Positions 29,498 through 61,230 of a stretch of 64,000 nucleotides of DNA are shown piece after piece. The notes beneath the pieces are model-generated. The model ran no database searches and was not told the origin of the DNA. It saw only the letters and a program-made list of their open reading frames with translations. Source of the stretch: Pseudohongiella sp. (GTDB lineage: Bacteria; Pseudomonadota; Gammaproteobacteria; Pseudomonadales; Pseudohongiellaceae). A program made the position numbers and the translations under genes. The stretch is taken from positions 124,001 through 188,000 of the forward strand of contig JAUSCD010000035.1 in the NCBI GenBank assembly GCA_030651695.1, in the 5' to 3' direction. Numbering within the stretch: the stretch's first letter is position 1; every line of letters starts with the position of its first letter.

Positions 29498-30466
29498 TTA
29501 AACCCGAGATTCAAGTTCTTTCTCCCTGCAGATCAGGCCTTCCAGCTTCTCTGCACAGTCGGTGAACTTTTCGATGAAATTTAAAATTAACGCGACACTC
29601 TTGACTGGATTGTCAAGCATGACGGCATGACCTGCTCGTGGCACAACGGAGAGTTCACCGCGGGAACCGAGCACTTTCATCATCTTCACGGCCAAACCAG
29701 GTTCAAGAATCGACGACGCCTGACCTCGTACGATATGAACCGGCAGATCAAGCGAGCCAAGCGCATTCCAGATCTGTTCGCTCAACTCCCCTTTATCCTT
29801 GCGCAACGCCCGAAACTCCGGGTTTTTGTGCCAGATGCCAGGCGTGAAGGCCGGATCGCTTTTTGCCCTCAGCATGCCCTGACTGATGCGCAAGCCGAAA
29901 CTGGCTACATGCTCCAATGCTTCGGTGTCTGCCATCACATAAATACGCGACAGGGAATCCAGATAGGCTGGCAAATCGGCGTAAGATCCCGGCAGTCGCA
30001 TGACGTCGTTCACCAGTCGTTCGCCGGCTTCCGCACTGACTTCCGGCCCGGCATCGACAAGCGTCAGGGTGGCAATGTTGTTGCGGACCGATCCACGGGG
30101 ACTTCGCATCGATTCCAGCGCCAGCAATGCAACCCTGGCGCCCAGCGAATGCCCCACGATATGCACCGTGGCATCGCCAAACTCTTGCAAAAAATCCTGC
30201 AAATCGTCGGCGAGCTGCCAATGCGAGTACTTATGCTCAGGATCCCAGTCCGAGTCTCCATGGCCACGATGGTCCAGCGCAATCACATGATGAGTGCGTT
30301 GTAACTCAGAGGCCAGCCCGTCCCAGACATGTGCATCGTTGGTAAAACCATGCAGCAGAATGCAGTAGCTCTTGCAGTCCGCAACTGCAGAGACAGGGCT
30401 TAAACAGGGATGGTTCAAGTAATGCAACCGCAATCCATCCCGTGTTCTGAAGAATCGACTTTCCAT
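29498..30466 (-). CDS. Alpha/beta hydrolase, last gene of the PKS/NRPS operon
   Basis: 322 residues, no signal peptide, so cytoplasmic. Typical alpha/beta-hydrolase landmarks are the oxyanion HGF in CILLHGFTNDAHVWDGL, then VIALDHRGHGDSDW, the nucleophile elbow GHSLGA with S107, and a late catalytic His in PRAGHAVMLDNP. It begins 3 bp after the serine-hydrolase stop, itself 42 bp from the NRPS stop, so all three are probably co-transcribed. In an assembly line without an integrated thioesterase it could serve as the release enzyme or a type II editing thioesterase. It does not look like a classical type II thioesterase (no GxDxxFxLGGHS-type region), so that role is inference from position. Confidence 0.8.
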   Translation of the reverse strand: MESRFFRTRDGLRLHYLNHPCLSPVSAVADCKSYCILLHGFTNDAHVWDGLASELQRTHHVIALDHRGHGDSDWDPEHKYSHWQLADDLQDFLQEFGDATVHIVGHSLGARVALLALESMRSPRGSVRNNIATLTLVDAGPEVSAEAGERLVNDVMRLPGSYADLPAYLDSLSRIYVMADTEALEHVASFGLRISQGMLRAKSDPAFTPGIWHKNPEFRALRKDKGELSEQIWNALGSLDLPVHIVRGQASSILEPGLAVKMMKVLGSRGELSVVPRAGHAVMLDNPVKSVALILNFIEKFTDCAEKLEGLICREKELESRV

Positions 30467-30469
30467 AAA

Positions 30470-32581
30470 CTACTCGCCGTACAGGATTTCGAGAATGCCT
30501 TCCAGCATCACTTCGTTGACGTTGGAAATGTGGAAATTCCCATCCGCGTCGAATTCCGTCAGCAAGGTGCGGTTCAGCAATACCGCCATTGCTGTGCCCG
30601 TGCCCGTGACGTCATTGGGATTGCGGTAGTGGTATTGCCACGAAGCGTCATATCCCACAATTTGTCCTCTGTGACCGAAGGCCTGTATGCCCAGATCCTG
30701 CACAACACCCTGCAGCATGTTGATGCCTTCACCAAAGGCACTTCCAACCTGGAAAGGCTCGCGCATCAGCGCCTGGGTAGCCGGGCTCAGCAGTGTCCCT
30801 TCCATCACAGCATTCGCCCATTTCACCAGATCGGCCGCGGTTGAGATCATTGCGCCGGAACCCATGGTATATGAGGGATCGGTGTTGGATCTTTCAACAT
30901 CAGTGTGCGGGAAGCCAAACAGATCAGCCACGTAAGGTCCCTGGTTATCAGCCCAGTTGACATAACCGCGCGCGTAAGTCCCCTGCTGTCGCAACTGACC
31001 TGGCGAAGGCACAATGGTATTAGTCAAACCCAATGGCTGCACAAAGCGGGTGCGAATCTCATGTTCCCAGCTATTCCTGGTGATCTTTTCTGCGATTTCC
31101 TGCAGCAATACATAGTGAGTATTTGAATAGTTCCACTTTTCACCGGGTTTATTGACCAGGTACGGACGGCTCTCGGTCGCGTTGTTGCTTGCAAAGGAGG
31201 AATTGACCGCAGCGCCAATATTCACCAGTTCACCAGGCCCATAGACAAAACCCGGCATGCCGATATAACGCACAAACCAGAGGTCAGTCATGCTCGGCTC
31301 AACATTCATGGTGACGCCAAACGCATTTTCGAAATCCGGGAATTCGTTGGTGAAACTGAAAATTCCGGCAGTGTGGTTCAATAGCATCTTGACGGTGATC
31401 AGATCACCGAACGGAAACTGGCCAGGGAAAAACTCATCCAGTTTCTGGTCCAGTCGTAGTTTGCCCTCATCTACCAGTTGCATGATCAGCAAGCCGGTGA
31501 AGGATTTGGTGGCGCTGCCGATACGGAACTTGTGCAGAGGAGTCATGACCTCGCCTGTGCGGGTATCCGCCACACCGGCAGCGGTGTGCCAGACTTCGCC
31601 GTTAGGCAGCTCGATCGACAGAGAAACGCCGGGAATGGATTTTTCTTGCAGCCGCGTAATCATGTAGCTCTGAATTTCCAGTTTCTGGAAATTGACTTCT
31701 GCCGCGACCTCTGTGTAACTGACTGCTCCGGCGTTCACCCCTCTTGCTGCTGTGACCAGCGCACTGTACTGACCACCAAAGCTGGTACTTGTCAGATTCG
31801 TCTCCGCCAACGGCGAAGCAAGTGACTGTTTCGTTGCGGAGGCGATGTGGATGCCGTTGACACTGTTGTTGTCTTTGTCCAGCGAACCCAGGACCTGCAA
31901 TGACCGCAGATAGGCCGGATCTTTTTCACCAAGCGTAAACAGTGATGCGTAGGGAATCGCTTTTGCCTGAGTATTCGAGACAGGGTTGCCCAACCCAAGT
32001 GCACCGATACTGAAAGCCACAGGACTGCCATCTACAGCATAGAATCTACCCTGAGAGTCAGTCATGCTCCTTTTGGTACCGGACACATAGTCAAGACCGC
32101 CAATGGGCACAGACAGTCTTCCGGGCGTCACGGGCCAGAGGTTTTTCAGCTGAAACAACGACGCTGGCGCGGTAACTGACTGCAGCGCCTGCAGTTCTGC
32201 GGCGTAATAACGACCATCGATCGCCAACACAGGAATGCTCAGGGTGTTGGTCGTAAAACGCCCCGAGTGGTCATAATGACTGTCAGGCGTACCAGCCGCG
32301 CCGATCAGGCGGGAGTCGGAGACTTGCAGAATTTCGGTTCCTGAGGATGAAATCAGCGTAAGCTCCACGCTGAACAGATCCCCACCGAAGGCAAGTTCCG
32401 GCAGTACTATTTTGCCATTGGAAAACTCCGGTATTTCTCTGCCATCGACGGCATCGGCAATGGCGTTTTGTCCCGCCACACCCGCCCAGAACAAGACCAG
32501 AACAAAAAAAAGCGCACTGCCATCGATCCGGGGCAGTCGCAGCCAGCGGTCAGCATTAAGCAAACGAGTTTTCATGAACAT
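30470..32581 (-). CDS. Secreted S12/class C beta-lactamase-family serine hydrolase with extra N-terminal domain
   Basis: About 703 residues from the ATG with AAGGA four bases before it; a second ATG lies six bases on. A hydrophobic stretch near residues 20-40 (ALFFVLVLFWAGVAGQ, then NAIADA) looks like a Sec signal, placing the enzyme in the periplasm. Residues about 50-310 form an unassigned beta-rich region. The C-terminal half is a serine beta-lactamase/penicillin-binding fold: S356-A-T-K359 (SxxK), Y485-S-N (YxN) and H637-R-G (HxG, KTG-equivalent). It has no C-terminal membrane helices, unlike the prodrug peptidase ClbP. Candidate roles are periplasmic maturation of the cluster product, self-protection, or PBP-type release. 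The last is disfavoured by the signal peptide but suggested by the terminal E domain. Confidence 0.85.
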   Translation of the reverse strand: MFMKTRLLNADRWLRLPRIDGSALFFVLVLFWAGVAGQNAIADAVDGREIPEFSNGKIVLPELAFGGDLFSVELTLISSSGTEILQVSDSRLIGAAGTPDSHYDHSGRFTTNTLSIPVLAIDGRYYAAELQALQSVTAPASLFQLKNLWPVTPGRLSVPIGGLDYVSGTKRSMTDSQGRFYAVDGSPVAFSIGALGLGNPVSNTQAKAIPYASLFTLGEKDPAYLRSLQVLGSLDKDNNSVNGIHIASATKQSLASPLAETNLTSTSFGGQYSALVTAARGVNAGAVSYTEVAAEVNFQKLEIQSYMITRLQEKSIPGVSLSIELPNGEVWHTAAGVADTRTGEVMTPLHKFRIGSATKSFTGLLIMQLVDEGKLRLDQKLDEFFPGQFPFGDLITVKMLLNHTAGIFSFTNEFPDFENAFGVTMNVEPSMTDLWFVRYIGMPGFVYGPGELVNIGAAVNSSFASNNATESRPYLVNKPGEKWNYSNTHYVLLQEIAEKITRNSWEHEIRTRFVQPLGLTNTIVPSPGQLRQQGTYARGYVNWADNQGPYVADLFGFPHTDVERSNTDPSYTMGSGAMISTAADLVKWANAVMEGTLLSPATQALMREPFQVGSAFGEGINMLQGVVQDLGIQAFGHRGQIVGYDASWQYHYRNPNDVTGTGTAMAVLLNRTLLTEFDADGNFHISNVNEVMLEGILEILYGE

Positions 32582-32623
32582 ACCTTCCTTAAACGTTTGT
32601 TGATCCAACAGTTAAATGGCAAA

Positions 32624-35600
32624 TCAGAAACTCTCCAATTTGCGCTGCAGCCTTTCCCAGCACGACCGCATGGTCCCGGACTCAAATACGCCAGGTGCCC
32701 ATGCTACCTGTAATTCAAGTGCGTTATCTACAACATAAAACTCAATATGCAAAGGAACATCCACCGCAGAGCCGGGAGCCATGGCATTGGTGAATACCTT
32801 GCCCGTCAGTCTGAACAGATCGTCCGTGTGCTGGCTGTTGCCGAATTCGCCAAGATAATTAAAGCTTATCAGCGCAGGCAGCGCCCCGCGCAACGCGGGT
32901 TCGGCAGCCACACAGGCAAACACATCAGGCTGCCCCGAAGGGTCTGCGCGTAACACCCGATTGGCCTGCAACAACGCGTCATCGCCTTTAAATATCCTGG
33001 TATCGAGATTGAACAGGCGGGCACGGGTCAGCCAGGCAACCTGCCGCGCCAGATTCAGCGTGCCATCACGGCCGTGACTTTCTACCATGAGCGGGACGCA
33101 CTCAATGGGTAGCAGGTCACACAGTTCACTGAGCGCCGTTGCCAACAGCAGGTCCTGCAGTCTGAATTCGATGAGCTGCTGTTCTGACATTCTGCGCAAG
33201 GCCTCTCGCAATCTCGTCAGGCCGGCAGCAGCAACATGCAGATGTAAAGTTTCCAGTTCGCCGTGCGTGCCGCAATCAAGTGCCAGAGCATCCATGGTGC
33301 ACACCGCTCTGTGGTAACTTTCTGACACTGCCGGCGGTATTAGAATCTGTTCCGCCGAGCGTGCAGCCGCAATTTCCGCAAGCAGATGTTGTGGCCTCAG
33401 GTGCGATACCAAAAGTTCCCCACTATCAAATGCACTGTCTTCAACTCCGCTTTCCAGCAAGGCCCGTGTCAGTGCATTGAGGTCTGCGATCAGTATTCGC
33501 AGTGAAACCCAATCAGCGATCAGGTGATGCAGAGCCAGCACCAGCGACTGGCTGCCGCCATTTGTTTCCTGCACCAGCACACAGCGGAATAAAGGACCTG
33601 CTGCCAGTGAAAACGGGTAACATGCAAGTTCTTCAATTGCCAGATCGTCGGCCTGCGGCATGTTTGCGTGTGTGCGCTGATAACAATTGAGCACCTCATC
33701 CAGATCGAGCGATTCACGTATCTGCTGTATCCAGCTACCGTCCTGCTGGTAAAAACACGCGCGCAGGGAATCGTGATTGTGTATCAGCGCAGACAAGGCC
33801 TTTTTCAGCAGCCCGACTGATAGACCAGCCGGCATTTCAAGTTCTGTCACGATATTGAAGTGCGCGGCTGTTTTAGAGTCGCGTGAACGCAAAAACCAGT
33901 TTTGTGTCGGCAGCAACGCGACATTACCGCCAAGCGGTTGACTGTGGTCTTCGGTCACACGCCAGGGTGACATCGCCGCGGCCATATCTGCCAACAGCGG
34001 AGCGGCAAAGAAGTCTTTTAATGCGCAGCTAAAGCCTTTTGCTCTTAGCGTGTTGATGACTTCGAGCGCTTTGATGGAATCTCCGCCCAGGGCAAAAAAA
34101 TCGTCATAACGACCCACAACTCCGGTTTTGAGTGCACGCAGCCAGGCTTGGGCAAGTATGCGTTCTGCTTCTGTAACAGGTGCCACAAATCCGGCGTCCG
34201 GGGAACGGGCATGTACAGAGGCAAATTCAAGCAGTGCAGCGCGATCGATCTTTCCTGCGGAGGACAGCGGGAAGACATCCAGCAGCAACAGATCACCGGG
34301 AATCATATGGCGCGGTAATGTTCTGCCAAGTTCTGCCCGAATCTGCGATTTTAATGGCGTGTCATCCGCCGTCTGAGCTGATTGAGCCAGGCAAACCAAC
34401 AACAGCCCCAATTCCGGATGCACAAGCGCAATCGCATCGCTGACGCCGTCGACGCTACGCGCGACATGTTCGATCTCGCCGGGTTCAATACGATATCCGC
34501 GTATTTTTATTTGTGAATCCGTGCGACTCAGGTATTCCAACAGACCGTCTTCACGCCAGCGCACCAGATCCCCCGAGCGATACCAACGGCCTTGTTCCGG
34601 CTCACCGGGAATGGAACCAAACTTCTGCGCGCTGAGCTCGGGCGCCGCATAATATCCTGCAGCCAGCGTTGCACCACCAATGTACAACTCACCGGCACTG
34701 CCCACCGGAACACGCGCACCGGTGGCATCGCGCACACTCAGCAATACCCCCGGCAGCGGTTTGCCGATAGGAACACCAAAAGGCCATTCATCCTGTTCCT
34801 TCACCACATAGGTGCTGGCGCACACCGACGTTTCAGTCGGGCCATAGGCATTTATCACCCGTAGCGACGCCGCGTAGTGCCGCATATCTGCAGCGATGGC
34901 CGCCTCTCCTGCGGTGATCAGTACACGAAGTTTGCCAAGCGGCCGTTTGTCGAGCGCGCGCAGGAATACCGGCGGCAGTGTGATCACGCTGATTTTTTTG
35001 TCACACAACCAACGCATAAACAGCTCTATGTCACTGCGTGTTTCATCCGGGGCGATTGCCAGCGACGCGCCGGCACGCAATGCGAGGAATATTTCCGACA
35101 GCGAGGCATCAAATGTCAGCGCAGCAAATTGTCCGCACACATCATCGTGTCTGACATCAAATGCAGATATCTGCTGTTCTATCATTGCAGCAAATGCTGC
35201 ATGGGAAATCTGTACGCCTTTAGGTTTCCCGGTCGATCCGGACGTAAAAATCATGTAGGCGATATCGGCGTCGCTGCGCTTTACCAGATCGCAGCTTGTG
35301 TGGTCAGGCGCATCGGTATAGTGCCGATGTTGTAACGCAGGAAGCTGAACATGGAGTTTTTGTGTCAGTACGCTGGCAAGTTCTGCCCCCGGCTCGTCTG
35401 TACTCAGCAGAATATCAACCGCACCTTCGAGGATGATCATTTGCAACCTGTCTACCGGGTTGCCCATATCCAGTGGAATATAGACTGCGCCTGCATTCAT
35501 CACACCGAGCATCGCAGCAATACTGCGCGCGCTGCGCTTGCCGATCACACCAATATGAGTCTGTTTATGGCTTGAGACTGGTATCGCAGCAAAAAGCAAC

Positions 35601-38600
35601 GCACCTATGCGCTGCATTTCCGCATCGAGTTCAGCGTAAGACCAGTCAACCACGGTGTCGCTGATCCTGCCTGTCGCCGTGGTGGCAACATGGCTGAACA
35701 ACGCGGGTAGCCACGTCTGTTTGCTGTCGACCACTTCTCTGTCAGGTTCAGAACCTTCAAAAGTCTGAACGCGGGCAAGATCACTCTCCTGCAGCCATGG
35801 CACTTGCACCAGTTTTTTACTGTGACTATCGGTAAGGCCTTTAATGACACGGTCAACGCAACGCAGGATCAGGCTGATGTTCGCAGCCGAATAAATGACG
35901 CTATCGTATTCTGCAATCAGTTTCAGTGTCCCGTCCGCTGCAGGGAAGGCACTCAGGGTGAGGTCGTACTGACTGGTGGTGGATGCCATCTCATGCACCC
36001 CGGCGACATGCGCACCGAATCGCAGATCTTCCATGTCTGTGTTCTGCAGCACCAACAGCACATCAAACAAGGGCGTGCGGCCAGGATCTCTGACCAGGTC
36101 CAGACCAGATACAATAGTGTCAAATGGCACACTCTGATGTGACAGGCAGCCATTGACTTCTGTTGCCACAGCTTGCAAAAAAGCGGCAACGTCATTATCC
36201 GGGTTCATGGTCGTTCTGAGCGGCAATAGGTTTACAAAAAAACCGATCACTGATTCCAACTGCTGATGCTGCCTGCCCGCCACCGCTGTGCCGATACAAA
36301 AGTTCTGCTGTCCGGAAAGACGGGCCAGCACAAGCTGCACTGCTGCAAACAAGCCAGCAAAACTACCGATGCCCAGCGTGGCCAGAGATCGTGTGAAGGG
36401 TGTCCAGACTGCTGACTCAATATCCAGCTGAACCGAAGCGCCCTGACTCTGCATCAGGGCCGGCCTGGGTGCGGCAGCCGGCAGCTGCAACGCTTCAAGC
36501 GGACGTGCAAAGTGTTCTTGCCAGAACTGTGCCGCACGTGATCCCGCCTCCGAGTCCAGCCATTGCAACTGCCAACTGGCGAAATCCCGGAACTGCAGAC
36601 GCTCAGTGTGTGCCTGATCTTCAGTGTCAACCGTAAGCTGGCCTTCGCTGGCTTTCAGGTAAAGATCGCTTAACTCACGGGAAAAAATTCCGATCGACCA
36701 GCCATCACTGATGATGTGATGCATGGTGATAAAAAGCACCTGCCGACCGGACGTCAATTCACCGGCAGAAATGCGAATAAGAGGCGCTTTGCTCAGATCG
36801 AAGGCAATGGTGTTTTCTTGCTGAGCCATAGCATCCAGCTCTGCATCTTCCAGCACGCCTTGTATCCAGCGCGCACTGGTTTGTATTGCTGAGACCGGCA
36901 CAATCACCTGTCTGAGCGCACCTTCGGCATTTTCCCGGAAACAGGTGCGCAGAGCATCGTGACGTTGATACAAATGTATGAGAGCCAGGTTCAGAGCCTG
37001 TCGGTCTATCTGTCCTTCAACCGTCAGCGTGGCATGCATATGAAACGGCGAAGGCCCTGAAGAGCGAATATTTTCTACCATCCACAAGCGCGATTGTCCG
37101 GGCGAAACCGGATAGCTCTCGGATATTGGCAAAACCTTCAGCACCGGCGCCTGGGCTGCTCCGTTGTCAATAACCCGATTGTCAGCAACAAACGCATCGG
37201 CATCAATCCGCGCAGCCAGCCCGGCCAGCGACGGATGCGCCTGCAGATCCCGGAAGTCCAGGGTCAGCCCGTAGCGCGCGGCAATGCGCGAAAACAGCAT
37301 CATCGCTTTGAGGCTGTGACCACCGAGATCATGGAATGTATCCTCCCTGAAAATTTCCGCTTGCCCCAGCAGCTCAGTGAAGAAACCGGCAAGCGTCAAC
37401 TCAGTGGGCGTGCCGGGCCTGGTTTTTTGTGCAGCATTGCCGGCGCCAGTGCCGGTTTTCTGTATCACGCCCTGATGCTGCAATTGTTGCAATATCACAG
37501 TACCGCAGTTCAGAGTGCCTGCAAGATGATGGTAGTAGCGTGACGTTCTGGCAGACAAGTGCACGGTGTCGACAGCAACAGGCTGAGTTTCTTCAGCGCG
37601 TGTCGTACTTTCTGCATGAGACACGTCACTGCCACTGTCATCTGTGCCTGGCAACCACCGGGATGACTCAGCCACCGGCAGACAGAATTGCCAGGCTGCA
37701 GCACCCGGCTGCCCGGCCGAAGATGTCGCTGTGATGCTTTGCAGAAATTGCAGCGCAGGGGCATTACGCGCGAGTCTGACAAAGTCCACGCGCAGTTCAT
37801 CAACGCCACTTATTGCGGCTTCCTGTGCCAGCGCCCGCAGTATGGAATGCTCAACACCGCGACCCAGCACCCGGCAACTGAGCATCAGACCAAATACTGT
37901 CCATGCCTGCGGACCACGCCGGATGAATACACTGCCGGTCAGTCCATAATCGCCGTACTTGTCTGTCACACTGATGCAGCGGATATCGGTATCAGCATCT
38001 TCGAGCAGGCTGGTGAGTTCTGCTTCCTGGTAGCGGATGCCGGTGGTATTGAACTGATTTGTGCGCTGGGACAATTGCGCCGTACGCGACAAATCATCCT
38101 GAGTCAGTTTGCGCATATCAACATGGATATCCAGCGACAACAGGAATTCTTCATAGCTCGCGGTTGCCTTTTTTGCACTGGCTCGCTGCAGCTCCTCAGC
38201 ATACATCTGCGCGCGCGCAGCATCCTCACGGGTGGCTGCGCGCGCGTCAAGCAGCCAGAGGTGAGCCAGAAATGCGTCGCGATCCTGGGCCGGCGGCAGC
38301 TGAATGGCCAGCACGCCCGGACAGGCAGCCAGCACCTGCTCACACTCCAGCGGGCTGTCGTCGATAAAAACAAAACTGTCCAGACCCAGCGACAGATCAT
38401 CAGCAAGGGTCAGAATACTGTCGGACTTTGGACCCCAGCTGGCGCACACCCGCGTCAGGTGGTTCCAGCGTAACGGCATGTCACGCTGCTCGAATACCGC
38501 ACGCACATCGTCTTCATTGTTTTTGGTCGCCAGACAAATGAGTGCGCCAGCGGCGCGCGCAGCAAGTAACTGTTGTTGCAAGCGCATGTGTACGGGATCA

Positions 38601-41600
38601 AGTCTGATGCCATGCACCCCCTCCTCGCCCACGATGCCACCCCACAGCGTGTCGTCTGCATCAACAACATACACTTTTACGGGTCTTCTGATTTGCAGAT
38701 CGCGCTGTCTGACGAGCCTGTTTGCGAGAGCGGCAAAAAATGCTTCTGTGTAGGGGATATCACCAAAAACAAGCGCTGGCGGAAAACAGGGTTCCGCCAG
38801 CGCATAGGTATCGGCAAGGTCCTCAAGACCCAGCACGTCAGCATTGTGAACTCCGGCAAGTTCGCCGCTGACATACGCCATAAATTCACGGTACACGGGC
38901 CAATTGCAGTCCGGCCAGGGACAGGGCACAAAATACAGATGGCTGCGCGGACAGGCACGGACATAGACGGCCAGTGCAGCAGCAAGCTCCGTTAACTGTG
39001 CAGAGGCGGCGGACTCCATAATGCGGCCCTGTTCGTCAGTCACCGGGCGCCACAACACAACATGATGCTGTGGTTGCAGGTGCCTGAGCCGTGAGTTCGG
39101 ATTGATCAACTCCTGCACACTCTGGTCGTATGGCAACAACGTGACTGCGCCTGAGTTGCCACTGATGTATTCGTGATACTGCAGCAGGCCGACTATGCTG
39201 TCCGCAGTGAAATTAGCCGATACTGTCCAAGCTCTGGCACCTGGGCTGAGTAATGTATCGAGCGAGCGTCTGGGTTCCAGCAATCCGGCCAACAGCGCGC
39301 ACAAATCCGCACCCATTTTTTTAAGCCCGTCCTGCAGATACAGACTACCATCGGCAATAAAACGGAAACTGAGGTCCTTGCTTAAGGGTGCGACAATCAA
39401 ACCAAACTCAAAGTGCATGGGATCAAATATTTCCTGCGGCTGCCATTGCCAGCGTGAAACAGCGTCAGATGCAGGATAATTCTCAAATACCAGCGCGTGC
39501 GTCACAAGCCCGGCACGCGCAGGTGATAAAGTCTGGATTTCTGCCAGCGTCAGATGACCAAAGCTCATACTTTCAGCAAATTGCTGCGCGGTATCACGCA
39601 CCAGGTCAGCAAACACTGTCGCGTCTCTGGCTCTGATGCGCACAGGCAATGTGTTGATCAACATGCCTGCGATATTGCCGACGCCTGCCACGTCAATATC
39701 ACGACCGGATACCGTGGCACCAAACACAATATCGTCGCTGCCTGTCAGACGTCCAAGAAATATCCCCCACAAAGCCTGTACAACAGCATTCATGGTGAGG
39801 CCATGTTGCTCACACCAAATCATCAGGTCAGCATGCAGCGCAGCACCTGTGCGGATCTCGACAAACAGCGGTGCGGGTTCTTCAGCAGGCATTCTTGGCA
39901 GGTGCGTGGGTATATCAGAGCGACCTTGATAGTCCCCTAACAAAGTCTGCCAATAATCTCTGGCCTTCTCTTGCGGTTGCCGGCCCAGCCATTCGAAATA
40001 AGATCGCATGCCGCGCGTGGTTTTGTTGTCACTGCGGCTGGTTTCTGCATTGCTTTCAATAAAGTAAAGCGCTTCCAGCCTCTGCAACAACAGTGCACTG
40101 GTCCAGCCATCAATTGCCATGTGATGAAAATCGATAATGAGTTCAAAGCAGCTGTTGTTGAGACGTACCAGCGTCAGGTTAAACAACGGATCACGCAGCA
40201 GGTCTCTGGCTTTACTGCGTAGCGATACGCGCAACCGGGCCAGGTCATGCTCAAACTCGTTACTTGATGCAGTGCCGCTGCCGGACTGATCGATGTACTG
40301 ATAGTTACCCGTTCGCTCACGGAAAACAATCTGAAGCAGTTCGCCATACGGTGTTTGTGCGAATCCGGCGCGAAGGGCCTGGGTTTCCGCCACCAGCGCA
40401 CCTGCGGCTGCCTCAAAACGTGCTGCGTCAAGCGGCTGATGCAGGCGCAGCGCCACCTGATCCTGATAGGCCGTCGGATGTGTCGCGCAGTGCAACCACA
40501 TCCCCGACTGCATCCCGGTCAAAGGCAGAATTTCTTCTACACCTGCAGCTGGCAGACGCAGTGCAGCAAGCGTGGCATCGAGCTCTGCAAGTGAAGCAAA
40601 AGCCACCAGACTATCGGATAGTGACAACAGGTAGCCATCGGTGGCATGACCTGCGGCGGTTTCCTTCAGGCGCGTCGCAAGTGTACCAAGTTCATGCAGC
40701 CACTCTGCGACGAGTGCATCAAGCGCTACCGGTTCGCCCGCTGCTGTTTTGCCAGACTCCTGACCGCCGGCAATGCGGCGATGCGGCTCATACCCACGCA
40801 ATGTCAGTTCAAACTGACCGTCGGTGATGCGTGCGAGCACGTCGAGTTTAAATGGTTCGGCAACATCTGCCCCATGGTCGTCACCGGCCGGCTCAAGCGC
40901 AGCATTCAGCCATGCGTCCTGATCGTTAACCGTTTCACCGAGGTAATTGAAACTGAGTTGCGGCTTGAGCGTCAGTGTGGTTCGCACCTCTTCACTGCTG
41001 TAATAACGCAGAGGCAAATATGTAAAACCTTTGGATGGCAAACGCCTGACACAGTCTTTTACTTCGCGGTAGAGATCAAAAAATTGCGGAGTTGCTCTTT
41101 CAGAACTACTGACAGAACTGCTGACAAAACTGCCAAGAGAAGCGCTGGAGAACACAAAGGGGTACAAGGAGGTGAACCAGCCCATGGTCGAGCTACAATC
41201 ACCCAGGCCTTCGAACGGTTCGCGTCCGTGGCCTTCCAGAGAAAAGACACAATCCACCTGACCCAGTGTGCGCTGCCATGCTCTGATAAAGGCCGCCAGC
41301 AGTAACTCCTGTGGCGTTGTGCGCAGCTGCGTTGCCCCCAACTGCAACAGAGTCTGCGTCTGCTCGCGAGAAAGCGTCTGTTCTGCTGCGCCGCGCGTTG
41401 ACTGCAGTTTGCTGAACAGATGTTGCTGTTGATCAAGAATTTCACGGCCGCGTGCGACAGCGTCCTGCCAGTAGGTAAGATCGCTGTCCATCGCCCCGCG
41501 CTCTGCCGTTGCCTTTAGCTGAGCAGCCCAGTTGATGAGGCCCAGTGCTTCCTGCACGGGCTGTTGCATGACATTACTTATGCTGCCGGGCTGGGTGGCC

Positions 41601-44600
41601 TGAAGGTTTTGTGTCAGGTGCTTGTGATACAGCCGCTGCAAATTTTCCGCAAACAAACGGCCGGAGACTTCATCTGCCGCAATATGGTGGACCACAATCG
41701 CCAGGTAGCTTACATCCGCCTGCGAAACCACACCCACGGCAAGCAGAACGCCTGAGTCCAGATCAATGGCGTGCTGCAGTTCCTGCCAGCACCGCTGTCG
41801 CGATTGCCCGGCAGCAAATTCGCGCAACACATATTGTCCCTTGTCCCGAATACGTTGCTGGTGCGTTTGCATGTCCAATGTCAGGCGCAGCGCCGGATGC
41901 AGCGCCAGCAAGTCATCGAGCGCCGCGCGCAAAACGGCTACGTCAACAGGCTCTGCGACCTTGAACACACTGGACAAATTGAAATGATTGGCAGGCACAC
42001 CTGTCTGGTCCAGCCACCATAGCTGCGTGGGACTCATTGGTCCGGAATCCAGCACAAGCTCAGTTGCAACGCGCGGCACTACGTTTGCCGCTGCGGCCAG
42101 GCCAGCCAGTGTCTCCGAAGCAAAGATATCCTTGAGCGTAAAGTGGTAACCCTCAGACCGTGCCAGTGATACCAGCTGAATGGCACGGATGGAATCGCCG
42201 CCCAAAGAGAAAAAGTTGGCGTCGCGATCGATGCCGTGTGCCGCATTTACTGTCAGACCCAGCACCGTGGCGTACAAGCGTGCAAGATCCTGTTCCGGTT
42301 TCGTTTGCAATAGATTGTGTTGTTGGCCGGCCGGTTGACTATCTGCGTCTTCGGGCAGCGGCAGCGCGTTGACATCAACCTTGCCGCTGGCATTCAGTGG
42401 CAATCGCTGCAGGCAGACAACTTTAGCCGGCAGCATATAATTCGGCACATTGCCTTTTAAAGCTTCGCGCACATCAGCAACACTGGCAGCGCTTCCGGCT
42501 GGTACAACAAGCCAGGCGAGCAACTCACTGATACCCGCCTCTCCGCGCGCCTGCACAAATGCGTCAGAAACACCGGGCAAAGTACGCAGGTGATACTCCA
42601 CTTCACCCAGTTCAACACGGAAACCACGCACTTTTACTTGCCGGTCATTACGCCCAAGAAATATCAGCTCGCGTTTGTGATTCCATTTGGCGAGATCACC
42701 GGTTCTGTACAAACGACCGGTACCGGCGTCCACAAACGGATCAGGCAGAAATACCTCCCGCTGCCCGTTGAGACCACCAGACTGCTGGTTGATGTAGCCA
42801 CGTGCAATGCCGTCACCGCCGCAATAAATCTCGCCGGGCACACCAATGGGTACCGGCTGCATATTCTGATCCAGCAAATAAATGCGACTGTTGGCAATCG
42901 GCCTGCCAATCGGAATGGTAGCCAGCGCCAGGTCGTCCGCAGTAATGCGGTGCCAGGTTGAGAAAGTTGTGTTTTCGGTCGGGCCGTAGACATGCAGAAC
43001 GTTTAAAGCGGGCTGCGCCTGCATCAGTTTCCTGATGTGCTCGACAGAAATTTTTTCGCCGCCGGTCAGCACGGTCTGCAATCTGGAAAAAGCCGCCGCA
43101 CTGTTGTCGACGAGCTGGTTAAACAGCCCCGTGGTGAGGAATGCAGTATCTATCTGGTAGTGATCTACCAGCGCCTGAAACTCATGCACTTCCAGCAAGG
43201 TTGTGCCGGCCGGAATACAAACACAACCGCCATTGAGTAAAGGCCCCCAGATTTCAAATGTGGCCGCATCAAAGGCGAGCGAACCGGTCAGCAATACGCG
43301 CTCTTCAGCCTGTACCTGATGGTAATCGGTATTACACACCAACCTGAGCACTGCACGCTGTTCGATTAGTGTGCCCTTGGGTTTGCCCGTCGATCCGGAT
43401 GTAAACATCAGGTAAGCCGGTTCGGGCGCCGCAGGTGCAGGGCCGGCTGTCTTTATGTTGACCAGCGGTCTGGTTTTGGAGAACGGCAGCACATTACTCG
43501 CATGGCCGGAAGCAGGCGATGAGTCAGTACGTCCTGTTTCACCATCGCGTAGCAGCGCATCCGTATCCATCAACGCAATACCCAACGGGTGCAACTCTTT
43601 TATGCGGTTTGTTTCCGCAAACAGCAACCGCACTTCGCCTGCCTCAATAACATCTGCCACGCGTTCCAACGGTGTGTTGGCGGCAAGTGGCACATAAACG
43701 CTGCGGGTTTTCAGAATGGCGAGAATGACAATCAGTGCGCGTTCGTCCTTCTCCAGCATCAACGCAATGCGGCAACCTGCTGAGTATGCAGGCTGATGCA
43801 CAATGAGTTGAGCCAGCTCATCGGATAACTGATCAAGAAGATCATAACTCAGCTGCACTTCGCCGGCATGAACGGCAATGGCGTTGGGTGATCGCTGCAC
43901 GGACTTGCGGAACTCGTCAACCAGGGTCGCGCGCTGAGGATAAGGCCGCGCTGTAGCATTTACCTGCTCCAGCAATAAACTGCGATCGACAACACTCTGC
44001 AACGCAAACTCACCCAGTTTACGCAAAGGCTGTTTTGGCAATTCAATAGCCAACAAGCGCCATGCTTCACACAAACGCTGCGCAGTTGCTTCGAGCAGGA
44101 TGCCGCTGGCGTATTCCAGATCAAGGCGCAGGCTGGCGTCACTGCCCTTCTCGAAGTGGAAAGTCAGATCGACCTTGCTGAATGCCAGCGGGATTCGCAA
44201 CGCGCGGCCGACACTGTCACCCTCCCGAACGGCAGCACCCGCGCTTTCTGCGCCCGGAGTGCCCCTGAAACTCAGACGCTGATCGTCGGCTGAGGTAAGC
44301 CCGAGCATCACATCATATAAAGGCGAGCGGCTGGGATCTTTGGCAAAACCCAACTCAGTCACCACCTCATCAAATGCCAGTCCCTGGTGCTGAAAACCCT
44401 CAAGCACGCTGCGACGTACCTGCATCAACAGTTCCGGAAAGGTTTTAGTACGATCAATGGGCTGGCGCAAAGCAATGGTGTTTACAAAAGGGCCGACTAC
44501 CTTGTCGAACTGTGCGCCAGGCCTGCCGGCGACCGGTGTACCCAGTGTCACTTCGCTGACATTCGCAAAACGCGCCAGCAGCAGTTGTACCAGTGCCACC

Positions 44601-45544
44601 AGGCCCATATACAAGGTGGCATTATGCGCATGGCAAAAGCCTTCGAAGGCGGCAGCGTCTGCAGTGGACAGCGTCAGCGCAACCGAGCGGCCACTGAAAT
44701 CTTTTAATACCGGTCTTGGCAGATCCGGCAGCGCATCCAGCGTCTCGGGCGGACTTGCGAAGATGTGTTTCCAGTAAGTTCTGGCTTTGCTGTTGTCAGC
44801 GCTGGTTTCATATTCTACGTAGTCGCGGAATTGCAGGTGGCTGGGCAAGGCAGCAGCTTCTTCCGGGGCACCCGCCTCTCCGTAGTACTGTGCCAGCTCG
44901 CGGATCATGCTGGTAATCGACAGACCATCACAGACGATGTGATGGATCACAACAACAAGACCCGCAGCTCCGGCAGCGCTCTCGCAGTAAATCACTCTGA
45001 TCAACCAGTCCTGCTGCAGATCGAAGGGTGTCGCGGCTTCTTCGCTGGCCAATTGCAGCAATTGTGTGTCCACATCGTGTTCCGCCGCCAGCTTACGCGT
45101 GTGCATTCTCCAGTCATCGGCATCGCGCGGCATCTGCAACAGCTCGTTGCCTTCGTGCGTAAACGCCGATCTGAGCACCTCATGGCTGGCAAGCAGCTTG
45201 CGCCATGCACGCTGAAGCCGCTCCGGCTCCAGAGCGTTATCAAAACAGAATGCGGCTGCGATGTTGTAGGCTGCGCTGGCGTCATTGCCCATCTGGGACA
45301 GCATCCACAGACGACGCTGCGCCAGACTCAGTGGATAAGGCGATCCGGCTGCGTGACTACCTTGTTGCGGCAGCGTTTGCGGATCTGTTTGTTGCCCCTT
45401 AGGCTGTGCCTGTTGCCCGATTGCCTGCGGAGCCTGTTGCCGCTCCTGTTGCTCGCGCAAGCGGGAAATCTGCTGCAGCAGCGCTGCGCGCTGTTCAGGC
45501 GACAGATTTTCCAGACGCGCTCGCAAAGCCTCTTTATTGTCCAC
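32624..45544 (-). CDS. NRPS: C-A-PCP-E-C-FkbH-PCP-C-A-PCP-E (4306 aa)
   Basis: Three-module NRPS starting at a GTG two bases after the previous stop. The N-terminal helix LENLSPEQRAALLQQ is typical of NRPS docking. Domains (approximate motif residues): C (HHIVCDG 201), A (FTSGSTGKPKG about 712), PCP (S1118), E (HHIAADEVS 1286, EGHGRE, NYLGE), C (HHMAIDG 1807), FkbH region (about 2109-2610; D2295-A-D2297), PCP (S2744), C (HHIISDG about 2941), A (about 3429), PCP (S3823), E (HHLIADWVS about 4005). Specificity codes read by eye against GrsA: A1 DAFFLGVTF(K), branched aliphatic Ile/Val-like; A2 DASTIAAVC(K), Tyr-like. The middle module has no A domain; its FkbH should load a glyceryl unit from 1,3-bisphosphoglycerate. 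There is no thioesterase. Product details are inference. Confidence 0.93.
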   Translation of the reverse strand: MDNKEALRARLENLSPEQRAALLQQISRLREQQERQQAPQAIGQQAQPKGQQTDPQTLPQQGSHAAGSPYPLSLAQRRLWMLSQMGNDASAAYNIAAAFCFDNALEPERLQRAWRKLLASHEVLRSAFTHEGNELLQMPRDADDWRMHTRKLAAEHDVDTQLLQLASEEAATPFDLQQDWLIRVIYCESAAGAAGLVVVIHHIVCDGLSITSMIRELAQYYGEAGAPEEAAALPSHLQFRDYVEYETSADNSKARTYWKHIFASPPETLDALPDLPRPVLKDFSGRSVALTLSTADAAAFEGFCHAHNATLYMGLVALVQLLLARFANVSEVTLGTPVAGRPGAQFDKVVGPFVNTIALRQPIDRTKTFPELLMQVRRSVLEGFQHQGLAFDEVVTELGFAKDPSRSPLYDVMLGLTSADDQRLSFRGTPGAESAGAAVREGDSVGRALRIPLAFSKVDLTFHFEKGSDASLRLDLEYASGILLEATAQRLCEAWRLLAIELPKQPLRKLGEFALQSVVDRSLLLEQVNATARPYPQRATLVDEFRKSVQRSPNAIAVHAGEVQLSYDLLDQLSDELAQLIVHQPAYSAGCRIALMLEKDERALIVILAILKTRSVYVPLAANTPLERVADVIEAGEVRLLFAETNRIKELHPLGIALMDTDALLRDGETGRTDSSPASGHASNVLPFSKTRPLVNIKTAGPAPAAPEPAYLMFTSGSTGKPKGTLIEQRAVLRLVCNTDYHQVQAEERVLLTGSLAFDAATFEIWGPLLNGGCVCIPAGTTLLEVHEFQALVDHYQIDTAFLTTGLFNQLVDNSAAAFSRLQTVLTGGEKISVEHIRKLMQAQPALNVLHVYGPTENTTFSTWHRITADDLALATIPIGRPIANSRIYLLDQNMQPVPIGVPGEIYCGGDGIARGYINQQSGGLNGQREVFLPDPFVDAGTGRLYRTGDLAKWNHKRELIFLGRNDRQVKVRGFRVELGEVEYHLRTLPGVSDAFVQARGEAGISELLAWLVVPAGSAASVADVREALKGNVPNYMLPAKVVCLQRLPLNASGKVDVNALPLPEDADSQPAGQQHNLLQTKPEQDLARLYATVLGLTVNAAHGIDRDANFFSLGGDSIRAIQLVSLARSEGYHFTLKDIFASETLAGLAAAANVVPRVATELVLDSGPMSPTQLWWLDQTGVPANHFNLSSVFKVAEPVDVAVLRAALDDLLALHPALRLTLDMQTHQQRIRDKGQYVLREFAAGQSRQRCWQELQHAIDLDSGVLLAVGVVSQADVSYLAIVVHHIAADEVSGRLFAENLQRLYHKHLTQNLQATQPGSISNVMQQPVQEALGLINWAAQLKATAERGAMDSDLTYWQDAVARGREILDQQQHLFSKLQSTRGAAEQTLSREQTQTLLQLGATQLRTTPQELLLAAFIRAWQRTLGQVDCVFSLEGHGREPFEGLGDCSSTMGWFTSLYPFVFSSASLGSFVSSSVSSSERATPQFFDLYREVKDCVRRLPSKGFTYLPLRYYSSEEVRTTLTLKPQLSFNYLGETVNDQDAWLNAALEPAGDDHGADVAEPFKLDVLARITDGQFELTLRGYEPHRRIAGGQESGKTAAGEPVALDALVAEWLHELGTLATRLKETAAGHATDGYLLSLSDSLVAFASLAELDATLAALRLPAAGVEEILPLTGMQSGMWLHCATHPTAYQDQVALRLHQPLDAARFEAAAGALVAETQALRAGFAQTPYGELLQIVFRERTGNYQYIDQSGSGTASSNEFEHDLARLRVSLRSKARDLLRDPLFNLTLVRLNNSCFELIIDFHHMAIDGWTSALLLQRLEALYFIESNAETSRSDNKTTRGMRSYFEWLGRQPQEKARDYWQTLLGDYQGRSDIPTHLPRMPAEEPAPLFVEIRTGAALHADLMIWCEQHGLTMNAVVQALWGIFLGRLTGSDDIVFGATVSGRDIDVAGVGNIAGMLINTLPVRIRARDATVFADLVRDTAQQFAESMSFGHLTLAEIQTLSPARAGLVTHALVFENYPASDAVSRWQWQPQEIFDPMHFEFGLIVAPLSKDLSFRFIADGSLYLQDGLKKMGADLCALLAGLLEPRRSLDTLLSPGARAWTVSANFTADSIVGLLQYHEYISGNSGAVTLLPYDQSVQELINPNSRLRHLQPQHHVVLWRPVTDEQGRIMESAASAQLTELAAALAVYVRACPRSHLYFVPCPWPDCNWPVYREFMAYVSGELAGVHNADVLGLEDLADTYALAEPCFPPALVFGDIPYTEAFFAALANRLVRQRDLQIRRPVKVYVVDADDTLWGGIVGEEGVHGIRLDPVHMRLQQQLLAARAAGALICLATKNNEDDVRAVFEQRDMPLRWNHLTRVCASWGPKSDSILTLADDLSLGLDSFVFIDDSPLECEQVLAACPGVLAIQLPPAQDRDAFLAHLWLLDARAATREDAARAQMYAEELQRASAKKATASYEEFLLSLDIHVDMRKLTQDDLSRTAQLSQRTNQFNTTGIRYQEAELTSLLEDADTDIRCISVTDKYGDYGLTGSVFIRRGPQAWTVFGLMLSCRVLGRGVEHSILRALAQEAAISGVDELRVDFVRLARNAPALQFLQSITATSSAGQPGAAAWQFCLPVAESSRWLPGTDDSGSDVSHAESTTRAEETQPVAVDTVHLSARTSRYYHHLAGTLNCGTVILQQLQHQGVIQKTGTGAGNAAQKTRPGTPTELTLAGFFTELLGQAEIFREDTFHDLGGHSLKAMMLFSRIAARYGLTLDFRDLQAHPSLAGLAARIDADAFVADNRVIDNGAAQAPVLKVLPISESYPVSPGQSRLWMVENIRSSGPSPFHMHATLTVEGQIDRQALNLALIHLYQRHDALRTCFRENAEGALRQVIVPVSAIQTSARWIQGVLEDAELDAMAQQENTIAFDLSKAPLIRISAGELTSGRQVLFITMHHIISDGWSIGIFSRELSDLYLKASEGQLTVDTEDQAHTERLQFRDFASWQLQWLDSEAGSRAAQFWQEHFARPLEALQLPAAAPRPALMQSQGASVQLDIESAVWTPFTRSLATLGIGSFAGLFAAVQLVLARLSGQQNFCIGTAVAGRQHQQLESVIGFFVNLLPLRTTMNPDNDVAAFLQAVATEVNGCLSHQSVPFDTIVSGLDLVRDPGRTPLFDVLLVLQNTDMEDLRFGAHVAGVHEMASTTSQYDLTLSAFPAADGTLKLIAEYDSVIYSAANISLILRCVDRVIKGLTDSHSKKLVQVPWLQESDLARVQTFEGSEPDREVVDSKQTWLPALFSHVATTATGRISDTVVDWSYAELDAEMQRIGALLFAAIPVSSHKQTHIGVIGKRSARSIAAMLGVMNAGAVYIPLDMGNPVDRLQMIILEGAVDILLSTDEPGAELASVLTQKLHVQLPALQHRHYTDAPDHTSCDLVKRSDADIAYMIFTSGSTGKPKGVQISHAAFAAMIEQQISAFDVRHDDVCGQFAALTFDASLSEIFLALRAGASLAIAPDETRSDIELFMRWLCDKKISVITLPPVFLRALDKRPLGKLRVLITAGEAAIAADMRHYAASLRVINAYGPTETSVCASTYVVKEQDEWPFGVPIGKPLPGVLLSVRDATGARVPVGSAGELYIGGATLAAGYYAAPELSAQKFGSIPGEPEQGRWYRSGDLVRWREDGLLEYLSRTDSQIKIRGYRIEPGEIEHVARSVDGVSDAIALVHPELGLLLVCLAQSAQTADDTPLKSQIRAELGRTLPRHMIPGDLLLLDVFPLSSAGKIDRAALLEFASVHARSPDAGFVAPVTEAERILAQAWLRALKTGVVGRYDDFFALGGDSIKALEVINTLRAKGFSCALKDFFAAPLLADMAAAMSPWRVTEDHSQPLGGNVALLPTQNWFLRSRDSKTAAHFNIVTELEMPAGLSVGLLKKALSALIHNHDSLRACFYQQDGSWIQQIRESLDLDEVLNCYQRTHANMPQADDLAIEELACYPFSLAAGPLFRCVLVQETNGGSQSLVLALHHLIADWVSLRILIADLNALTRALLESGVEDSAFDSGELLVSHLRPQHLLAEIAAARSAEQILIPPAVSESYHRAVCTMDALALDCGTHGELETLHLHVAAAGLTRLREALRRMSEQQLIEFRLQDLLLATALSELCDLLPIECVPLMVESHGRDGTLNLARQVAWLTRARLFNLDTRIFKGDDALLQANRVLRADPSGQPDVFACVAAEPALRGALPALISFNYLGEFGNSQHTDDLFRLTGKVFTNAMAPGSAVDVPLHIEFYVVDNALELQVAWAPGVFESGTMRSCWERLQRKLESF
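37710..39220 (-). other. In-line FkbH (glyceryl transferase/phosphatase) domain within the NRPS
   Basis: Segment of the 4306-residue NRPS between a C domain and a PCP, roughly residues 2109-2610. Its N-terminal part (ANFTADSIVGLL, TLLPYDQSVQELINPNSRL) matches the extension of long FkbH proteins. The HAD core has VDADDTLWGG (D2295, D2297), CLATKNNEDDV and FIDDSPLECEQV. The acyltransferase-like end has SQRTNQFNTTGIRY and DKYGDYGLTG. All hallmark motifs are intact, so glyceryl loading on the following PCP (S2744) is expected. Boundaries are approximate. Confidence 0.85.
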
Positions 45545-45546
45545 GA

Positions 45547-48500
45547 TCAGCTGTCCCGGCGCTTGTCTGACACGTCGGCTAGCAGCGCTTCGATCGCGTC
45601 GAGTCCGACATCTTCAATAGCCATATCTTTCAGCAACGCAGCAATGTCGTCATCTGCTGCGCTTGCCTGTGATCCGGGTTTTGCACACAAGGCTGCTTGC
45701 TGACGTGGCGTCGGGAATTCAAAAACGTCCGCTACATTCACGCTAAAACCAAAACGTGTTTGCAGCACATCGACCAGCGTCAAGGCCTTCAGACTGTGTC
45801 CGCCGATCTCAAAGAAGTTGGTCAGCGGGCCAATCTGTTTATGTTCCAGCACGTGCTGCCAGGCATCGATGATCTTGCGTTCAATGTCAGTTGGTGGCTC
45901 TGCGGCAGGTGCTTGCACCAGATAAAATGGATCCGGCAGTGCTGCCCGATCGATTTTCCCGTTGTTTGTCATCGGCAGCGCATCCAGCCATAAGGTGTAG
46001 GCAGGAATCATGTAGTCCGGCAACCGTGTCGACAGCCATGGCCGCCACTGTGCGGGCGCAGCCGTTTCATCACCCACCAGATAAGCAACCAGCTCTGTGC
46101 CATGCGTATTTTCGATCGGCATGACCAAGGCCTCTGCGACGCTCTGGTGATTTTCAAGACAGCGTGCGATTTCCTCGCATTCAACGCGGAAACCACGCAC
46201 CTGCACCTGATGGTCGTTGCGCCCCAGATACACCAGGCCAAGCTCCGGGCTGATATAACCGACATCACCCGACCAATAACAGCGCTGATTGTCGGTGCCG
46301 TTTTTCCCGGCGCTGGCAAGCAAAGCAAATTTGCGCGTCGTCAGTTCCGGCCGGTTCAGATAACCCATACCCACACCACTGCCACTGACCACAATCTCGC
46401 CAGCGATGCCCGGAGGTTGCAATTGGCCGCAGCGGTCGACAATCCATACTCCGGTCTCCGGCAAAGGCCGTCCTACCAGATTGAGATGGGAACCATTGAG
46501 CACATCCGCCTCGCTGACTTCGCGGTAACTGACATGTACAGTGGTTTCTGTGATGCCATACATGTTCACCAGTTTCACACGGGTGACCGGAAACGCCGCC
46601 ACCCATGGTGCCAGTCTGTTGCAGGCAAGAGAATCACCGCCAAACACAACAAGGCGCAAGGCGGCAAGATCGGTCGCAGGTTTTTTTAAAGCCGCCCTGA
46701 TAAATTGATAAAACGCAGCCGGCGTCTGATTCAGTACCGTGACTTGATGACGGGCCACCAGATCGACAAAGGTCTCGACGTTGCGTACGTCGGCAACTGC
46801 CGGAATCACCAGCGTGCCACCATTCAGCAACGCTCCGTACATTTCCCACACAGAAAAATCGAAACAGAACGAGTGGGCAACTATCCAGACATCCTTGTGA
46901 TCAAAATCAAAATCCAAATCCTGATTGCGCAGCAGGCGCACCACATTACGATGTGATATTTCGCAACCCTTGGGCTCACCAGTAGAACCAGAGGTGTAAA
47001 TCACATAGGCAGCCGATTCCTGCGAGAACCGGGGCAAACTGCCGGGGTCTGCAGTATGATTCGACAGGCTGTTGATATCGACCCGCCGAGCACCAAGGTT
47101 CAGCTCTGGCATACCATCGGCAGTCAGCACCAATGCCGCCGCACTGTCCTGTACGATAAAACGCAGACGCGCTTCCGGGTAAACAGGATCAAGTGCCACA
47201 TAACTGCCACCCGCCGCCAGCACAGCCAACATACCTGTAATCATCTCGCGGTTGCGTGGCAGCCATAACGCCACCCGCCGGCCTGGTGCAAAATCTTCGC
47301 AGGCCAGTAGACCGGCAGCCACGGCTTGCACACGGGCATACAATTCAGCATGCGTGATCGCTCCGTGTTCATCGCGCAGCGCAATACCTTCGCCATTGCG
47401 GCTGGCGGCGTCGCTGTACAAGTCGTATAGCGTAGGATCAGTGGGATAAGCTGACTGGCGCTGATTCCACTGATCAAAAAGCCAGGAATTTTCTGCCGGC
47501 GTCAGCAGATCCAGCGAGGCCAGAGCCTGATCCGGGGCATGCACCAGTACCTGCACAACATGAGCAAAGTGCTCTGCCAGATGTTCAATCTGCCGGGAGG
47601 GATACACGGCAGCATCAAACAGGAAAGTAGCTTCGAGACCAGCGGACGTTGGCACCAGCACCAGATTCAGCGGCAAGTCGGTGCGCTCGTAGGCACGAAT
47701 ATCTGAAATGCTGACAGCCGCAGCATTATCCGCACCGGCACTGCTCTTCACAGCGCTCTGATGCACATCCTTCTCATGCGCATCAGTCCCGCGCAATGCT
47801 GCATCCATCGGATAGTTTTCAAGCACCACCAGATGGTCAAACAGAGGTTCTCGCGCTCGCAGATCCGGCGCAGCCGCCTGAATCTCCGCCAGGCTGAGGT
47901 ATTCATGATGACGACTGGCATTGGCCTGCTGCTGAACAAGCGTCAGCGCATCGTTTGCAGTGATGACGTCATCCAGAACAAACCGTACAGGTACCGTATT
48001 GATGAACAACCCGACAGCGCTATCAATGCCGGCAACTTCGGCTGGCCGGCCGGAGACAACAGTGCCGTAAACAACGTCTGCACTATTGCTGAATCTTGCC
48101 AACAACACAGCCCAGGCCAGCCTGATAACACTGCTCAATGTTGCATTTTTTGATGCGCCAAAAGCCCGCATGCCCGTGGTCAGTGCCGGAGACAACTGTA
48201 CTGTGTGGCGCTGCAACTGGTAACCCTTGCGCTGATCAACAGGCTCTGTATCCAGACGTGGCCAGGGCAGCAGACGTGTAGGTAGCTCCACACCGGTTAG
48301 CAGTGTTGACCAATAACCAGTGCTGACGCTCTTGTCGCGCGCAGCAAGCCAGCGGAAATAATCCTGGTTTAATCTGTTGTTGCCAACATCAACACTTTTG
48401 GCATTGTTTGCGCCGGCAGTTGCCGCGCCAACAGTAAGGTTGTCATAACAATGCATCAAGCGGTCGAACAATATGCCAACACACCAACCATCCATGATCA

Positions 48501-59760: not shown

Positions 59761-59762
59761 TG

Positions 59763-60959: not shown

Positions 60960-61230
60960 GAGCCGGCGCCGAGATTTTGTGCATGAATGCATCCATCCTC
61001 GCAATGCTGCGGAAGTTGTCCAGATCCAGATCCTCGCTTTCAACGCGGGTCTCCAGTGTCTTTTCCACAAACAGCACCAGTTGCATGGCCATCAGCGAGC
61101 TCACCAGGCCGAGTTCAAAAATGTCATCATCGTCGGAAAAGTCCTCCTCTCCGACGAAGTTCTCCAGAAAGTTGCGTATGTCTTGTCTGTAGTTTGAGCC
61201 CGGGTTTACGTTCGAGTTTGTGTTGGTCAC
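60952..61230 (-). CDS. Small discrete acyl carrier protein (FkbJ type)
   Basis: 92 residues from a GTG that shares one base with the upstream TAG stop. The carrier motif is FELGLVSSLMAMQLVLF with S45 as the likely phosphopantetheine site. The form GLV-x-SL rather than LGxDSL is typical of dedicated FkbJ-like carriers. Acidic residues around the motif (EEDFSDDDDIF) are usual for an ACP. It should carry the glyceryl unit loaded by FkbH through oxidation to hydroxymalonyl-ACP and present it to the AT of the PKS. Genes for all partner enzymes flank it in the same operon. Confidence 0.92.
   Translation of the reverse strand: MTNTNSNVNPGSNYRQDIRNFLENFVGEEDFSDDDDIFELGLVSSLMAMQLVLFVEKTLETRVESEDLDLDNFRSIARMDAFMHKISAPAHE

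Follow-up and report, generated by a model that had tools for sequence, protein, structure and literature searches.

Modules in which FkbH stands in place of an adenylation (A) domain have been described in several nonribosomal peptide synthetases (NRPSs). In the cystomanamide synthetase of the myxobacterium Cystobacter fuscus, as tabulated in a review, the modules read (C-A-PCP-E)(C-C-A-PCP)(C-A-PCP-E)(C-fkbH-PCP)(C-A-PCP-E-TE), where C, PCP, E and TE denote condensation, peptidyl carrier protein, epimerization and thioesterase domains, and the product is given as Asn-Asn-Phe-GA-Tyr (GA, glyceric acid) on 3-amino-9-methyldecanoic acid (PMC9581180). FkbH likewise replaces the A domain in module 2 of the vioprolide synthetase, which is described as having an ester-forming C domain upstream that receives a fatty acyl group from FAAL-ACP and has no E domain before it (PMC8949500). 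Module 2 of the corramycin synthetase is C-HAD(FkbH)-T (T, thiolation domain, equivalent to PCP); here FAAL-ACP-C-HAD-T opens the line and the glycerate is proposed to be C-methylated (PMC10099666). In the suomilide and aeruginosin pathways, FkbH loads glycerate onto an NRPS PCP from a loading module that has no C domain upstream (PMC8609519, PMC13122637). The present analysis concerns a C-FkbH-T module in the middle of N2, an NRPS encoded within a 64,000-nucleotide stretch of Pseudohongiella sp. DNA (contig JAUSCD010000035.1, positions 124,001 to 188,000; referred to as the window). The chemistry of C-FkbH-T is not new in kind, given the cystomanamide, vioprolide and corramycin precedents. 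What is new is the reach and maintenance of the module across phyla, a C-domain subtype that agrees with the donor it receives, and the presence of a full FkbH/I/J/K cassette within the operon. The features of N2 are as follows.

32624..45544, minus strand: N2, 4306 residues, C-A-T-E-C-FkbH-T-C-A-T-E
40739..42055, minus strand: E domain of the module preceding C-FkbH-T, HHIAADEVS and EGHGR, about residues 1164-1602
37196..40513, minus strand: C-FkbH-T module, predicted to be specific for glycerate, module 7 of 8
39272..40513, minus strand: C domain of the FkbH module, HHMAIDGW at residue 1807, grouping with after-E C domains
38702..39217, minus strand: long-form FkbH N-terminal region (ANFTAD... 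PYDQ..QEL..P), common to long FkbH proteins elsewhere
37652..38701, minus strand: FkbH HAD/acyltransferase domain, Asp2295, Asp2297, Lys2373, Asp2395 and Cys2557 (SCR motif)
37196..37399, minus strand: PCP of the FkbH module, LGGHSL at about residue 2741
32639..37099, minus strand: following C-A-T module with terminal E, A-domain code DASTIAAVC (presumed Tyr-like), no TE

Profile searches of N2 residues 2100-2790 (Pfam, E values up to 0.1) returned PP-binding only, so that C and T have no A domain between them; N2 as a whole has two AMP-binding stretches, which are the A domains of the neighboring modules. FkbH occupies the A-domain position between T and a C domain with an HHxxxDG motif. The arrangement is not that of an FkbH loading module, as C lies directly upstream and is itself preceded by an E-terminated module. 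An earlier note on this DNA had described an A-less C-FkbH-PCP module in mid-chain with intact motifs, and both the domain map and the motifs (HHMAIDGW, LGGHSL and, at residue 2295, DADDT) bear this out. The interval it gave, 37240..40300, was correctly located but slightly short at both ends (within ∼200 bases); it had also recognized the preceding E domain and the following C-A-T but left the terminal E unmentioned.

The FkbH domain of N2 scored 303-306 bits against TIGR01686 (E ∼1e-90), for which the curated cut-off is 146.65 bits, and the genome holds only one other FkbH, a free-standing protein; a chance match can therefore be dismissed. Together with full-length relatives and orthologues that have no stop within the module, the profile score also rules out an assembly artefact. 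The module had no match in a viral collection. None of the Asp/Asp/Thr, Lys, Asp and SCR residues varies across 29 aligned FkbH sequences (N2 and 28 others). We take these to comprise the HAD catalytic Asp pair, Lys and Asp and the catalytic Cys of the SCR motif.

Five of the 14 other Pseudohongiella genomes compared carry a full-length C-FkbH-T module with 65-93% identity (6/15 with the genome of the window itself), as against none of the 20 family and 21 order genomes examined (0/41), some of the genomes compared being incomplete (e.g. 72-85%). When 390 genomes of the order were searched (E ≤ 1e-120, two candidates scored per genome), the matches were the Pseudohongiella genomes G000 and G007 and three polyketide synthase (PKS)-type FkbH. 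FkbH, its C and T domains and the following Tyr-like module are under purifying selection. For the closest pair of genomes, G000-G002, the dN/dS of FkbH was 0.081, the lowest of 11 N2 regions (others 0.092-0.228).

The whole assembly line is also found outside the phylum. In a metagenome-assembled genome (MAG) of Opitutaceae (Verrucomicrobiota; locus L053), it has the same gene order as in the window, with protein identities of 39-66% (about 40%, or 39-42%, for the assembly line as a whole). At the nine specificity positions of the A domains, A3 is identical, A2 and A4 differ at no more than one position, and A1 differs at two. Another genome from the order of this MAG (G597) carries most of the line on one 30.6-kb contig in a changed arrangement: FAAL-PKS, FkbH, FkbI, FkbK, KS-AT-T-AMT (AMT, aminotransferase domain) and C-A-T-E-C-FkbH-T-C-A-T-E, with A codes DAFFMGVTF and DASTIAAVC; the NRPS part of N1, the protein that precedes N2 in the window, lies off the contig. 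A third genome (G567) has a fragment with T-E-C-FkbH. That the parts remain together despite rearrangement indicates that they form one pathway, and conservation of the module within the genus together with the line in Verrucomicrobiota indicates a maintained one. An orphan line with conserved residue codes in Gammaproteobacteria and Verrucomicrobiota makes a glycerate lipodepsipeptide predictable and searchable.

The FkbH-module C domain was placed by means of a tree of 93 C- and E-domain sequences, with labels taken from domain context. The window domain falls in a supported group of 12 rows (99/89), which unites the FkbH-module C domains of Pseudohongiella, Opitutaceae, Microbulbifer, Latescibacterota and Balneolales with ordinary after-E C domains. 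Every row in this group follows an E domain, nine in their own open reading frame (ORF) and three in the ORF before. The other 12 C-FkbH rows lie outside the group and, where the upstream neighbor is visible, it is T, ACP or KS. We read this as a C domain suited to a D-configured donor and not as a class reserved for glycerate. A dedicated clade of C domains that accept glycerate was considered and rejected, the 19 C-FkbH rows requiring 11 label changes, at least six of them forced by starred branches. In the FkbH tree the C-FkbH label requires 12 changes, of which just one is forced, so that this tree alone is no proof of several origins. Several branches of the C/E tree are long. C-FkbH-T thus appears to be a general mid-chain route to a backbone ester, with the C domain fitted to its donor.

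Upstream of N2 and on the same strand lie N1, a KS-AT gene, the FkbH/I/J/K genes and a FAAL-PKS gene, such that C-FkbH-T is module 7 of 8 when FAAL is counted as module 1.

45547..55521, minus strand: N1, 3324 residues, ACP-AMT-C-A-T-E-C-A-T
55529..58621, minus strand: KS-AT protein
58618..59760, minus strand: free-standing FkbH, TIGR01686 254 bits, in a clade separate from domain-type FkbH
59763..61070 as listed, minus strand: FkbI-like acyl-CoA dehydrogenase, real start likely near 60959
60952..61230, minus strand: FkbJ-like ACP, 92 residues, GTG start, between the FkbK- and FkbI-like genes and missed by ORF listing
61230..62135, minus strand: FkbK-like 3-hydroxyacyl-CoA dehydrogenase
62138..63985, minus strand: KR-ACP, C-terminal part of a 2508-residue FAAL-ACP-KS-AT-DH-KR-ACP protein, the rest lying beyond the window (L003:139-7665)

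The later start is proposed for the FkbI-like gene because its first 37 listed codons overlap the ACP gene. The FkbJ-like ACP, which occupies the same place in G014 and in the Opitutaceae MAG, completes the cassette, and FkbH, ACP and the two dehydrogenases stand together at 58618-62135. The described methoxymalonyl-ACP cassette FkbH/I/J/K likewise comprises a free-standing FkbH, an ACP and two dehydrogenases (PMC3679948), but no O-methyltransferase was recognized among the scanned proteins of the window operon. Hydroxymalonyl-ACP is for this reason the likelier cassette product. One operon would then unite two FkbH routes, one likely leading to a polyketide extender and the other likely to a backbone unit.

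The presence of FkbI- and FkbK-like genes in the same operon could also be taken to mean that the N2 glyceryl-PCP is not an acceptor but feeds extender supply, with FkbK and FkbI oxidizing it to hydroxymalonyl. We consider this very unlikely, since a free-standing FkbH from a separate FkbH clade and an ACP are already encoded in the operon, the N2 module contains an intact after-E C domain without a KS beside it, and no FkbI or FkbK matches were obtained at the other C-FkbH-T loci retrieved (L044-L119).

Taken together, these features indicate that C-FkbH-T probably functions in elongation, adding glyceryl in place of an amino acid, such that a D-configured peptidyl chain becomes ester-linked to glycerate within a lipopeptide. 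The internal glycerate ester proposed in the earlier note is accordingly kept, as a prediction. FkbH would take D-1,3-bisphosphoglycerate to an acyl-enzyme at the conserved Cys, its HAD site would remove the phosphate, and glyceryl would be left on the PCP. The after-E C domain would accept a peptidyl chain whose last residue is D-configured (Ile/Val-like) and join it to a hydroxyl (2-OH or 3-OH) of glyceryl-PCP to form the ester, after which the next C domain would couple the glycerate carboxylate to Tyr through a normal amide and the last E domain would yield D-Tyr. The four A-domain codes read were DAILTAEVV, DFWNVGMVH, DAFFLGVTF and DASTIAAVC, among which we assume Thr-like, Ile/Val-like and Tyr-like specificities, the last for DASTIAAVC only. 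The predicted backbone is a FAAL-primed polyketide with a β-amine, then D-X, Thr, D-Ile/Val, O-glycerate and D-Tyr, with release in trans; the polyketide would be α-hydroxylated if the cassette provides hydroxymalonyl-ACP.

The aminotransferase domain in N1 raises the alternative that glyceryl is aminated before condensation, giving an amide bond. AMT directly follows ACP at the PKS-NRPS junction, as it also does in the Opitutaceae line, a position that fits β-amination of the polyketide, and amination of glyceryl appears extremely unlikely.

The whole genome contains eight condensation-family matches, all inside N1 and N2, and the chain is therefore not continued elsewhere after the last E domain. 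Release would occur in trans, perhaps via an α/β hydrolase encoded downstream of N2, where two hydrolase genes lie.

29498..30466, minus strand: α/β hydrolase (GHSLG), no obvious export signal, candidate trans-thioesterase
30470..32608, minus strand: PF00144 serine hydrolase, 712 residues, N-terminal region of ∼300 residues with a signal-peptide-like start, candidate maturation or resistance enzyme

The PF00144 gene adjoins N2 in Pseudohongiella clusters, and a relative with 29% identity lies ∼3.5 kb upstream of the Opitutaceae FAAL-PKS gene on the other strand. A role as a PBP-type thioesterase was ruled out, as the N terminus is hydrophobic and signal-like, judged by eye and hydropathy, in all five copies inspected (G000, G002, G007, G012 and G014). 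Among loci L034-L119, whose flanks extend to at most 10-12 kb, a PF00144 relative was found at the orthologue L041 only, and the 30.6-kb G597 contig has none; a general partnership of PF00144 with C-FkbH-T is thus not supported.

This hydrolase speaks for the alternative that the line bypasses the glycerate module or that the ester is rapidly cleaved, in which case the main product would end at D-Ile/Val, with glycerate-D-Tyr absent or a leaving group. Known pathways lend this some weight: just one of cystomanamides A-D is described with Tyr and glyceric acid (PMC9581180), the vioprolide precursor is acylated and its acyl chain is hydrolyzed off, and corramycin was found lacking the acyl chain that its FAAL activates (PMC10099666). 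We nevertheless judge skipping or cleavage unlikely, given the purifying selection on FkbH, its C and T domains and the Tyr-like module, the same A code across phyla and the scarcity of PF00144 relatives at the other loci. A related and rather speculative idea treats the glycerate ester as a built-in breaking point, whereby an ester-held glycerate-D-Tyr tail would be exported and the ester cut by a secreted PF00144 hydrolase, maturing or disarming the lipodepsipeptide. If so, C-FkbH-T would be a recurring device for building scissile bonds into nonribosomal peptides and would have arisen more than once through FkbH-for-A swaps.

Several points weigh against glycerate incorporation by a working elongation module. 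Of cystomanamides A-D, only B is described in the review as carrying both Tyr and glyceric acid, A, C and D being described without that part (PMC9581180), so that not every product may retain the unit. Both N2 E domains depart from the usual motif (HHIAADEVSG and HHLIADWVSL), the C-domain tree has no named references and its bootstrap support was not yet stable, and in the G014 pair the FkbH dN/dS of 0.108 was not the lowest, with dS saturated (above 1).

The earlier note had regarded the scaffold as unusual, and on this point it is not upheld. C-fkbH-PCP stands in the same fourth NRPS position in the tabulated cystomanamide synthetase, with glyceric acid followed by Tyr (PMC9581180), and FkbH replaces A domains in both cystomanamide and vioprolide modules (PMC8949500). 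The window line shares with cystomanamide the NRPS module order, a β-amino fatty acid start and a Tyr-type module directly after the glyceric acid position. By contrast, cystomanamide has a terminal TE where N2 ends in E, a second C domain in module 2, and Asn-Asn-Phe before glycerate in place of Thr-like and Ile/Val-like codes, and the FAAL-PKS, KS-AT and FkbH/I/J/K cassette set the window line apart from the synthetase as tabulated (PMC9581180). The line is cystomanamide-like but, lacking the TE and second C and with different predicted residues, is no member of that family. The cystomanamide cluster was not met in 377 sampled Myxococcota genomes (two candidates scored per genome) or in 29 genomes of one family, and no paper on the Pseudohongiella cluster was found in the open-licence literature.

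C-FkbH modules also recur in public sequences. Of at least 553 confirmed FkbH stretches, the best 80 loci were kept, and 16 of these have C before FkbH in the same ORF. The search for non-initial modules proposed in the earlier note was productive, an amino-acid-type module or E domain being visible ahead of C-FkbH in eight of the 16, either in the same ORF (L040, L041, L053, L116 and L119) or in the ORF before (L045, L103 and L110). Two of the eight are orthologues of the window.

In Microbulbifer halophilus (L116 / L141-L142), C-FkbH-T follows E in the middle of a long NRPS and has an insert of >100 residues between C and FkbH that is unseen in the other aligned modules. KS...T-C-FkbH-T is present in one ORF on a Niallia taxi megaplasmid (L038) and in SAR324 (L044), where glycerate may act as acceptor following a polyketide module. 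A Leptolyngbyaceae MAG encodes C, an A-domain C terminus (profile positions 302-430, YKTGD motif) and FkbH in one ORF (L058:3864-5123), which looks like a scar of FkbH replacing an A domain; this is one MAG, which may be a chimera, and none of the 62 other genomes of its order matched at 1e-70. Four verrucomicrobial loci (L081, L094, L102 and L107; L102 from an Akkermansia MAG) have FkbH-T-KS-AT-T-AMT-C-A-T ORFs, consistent with glycerate as the starter unit and with subsequent polyketide extension and amination.

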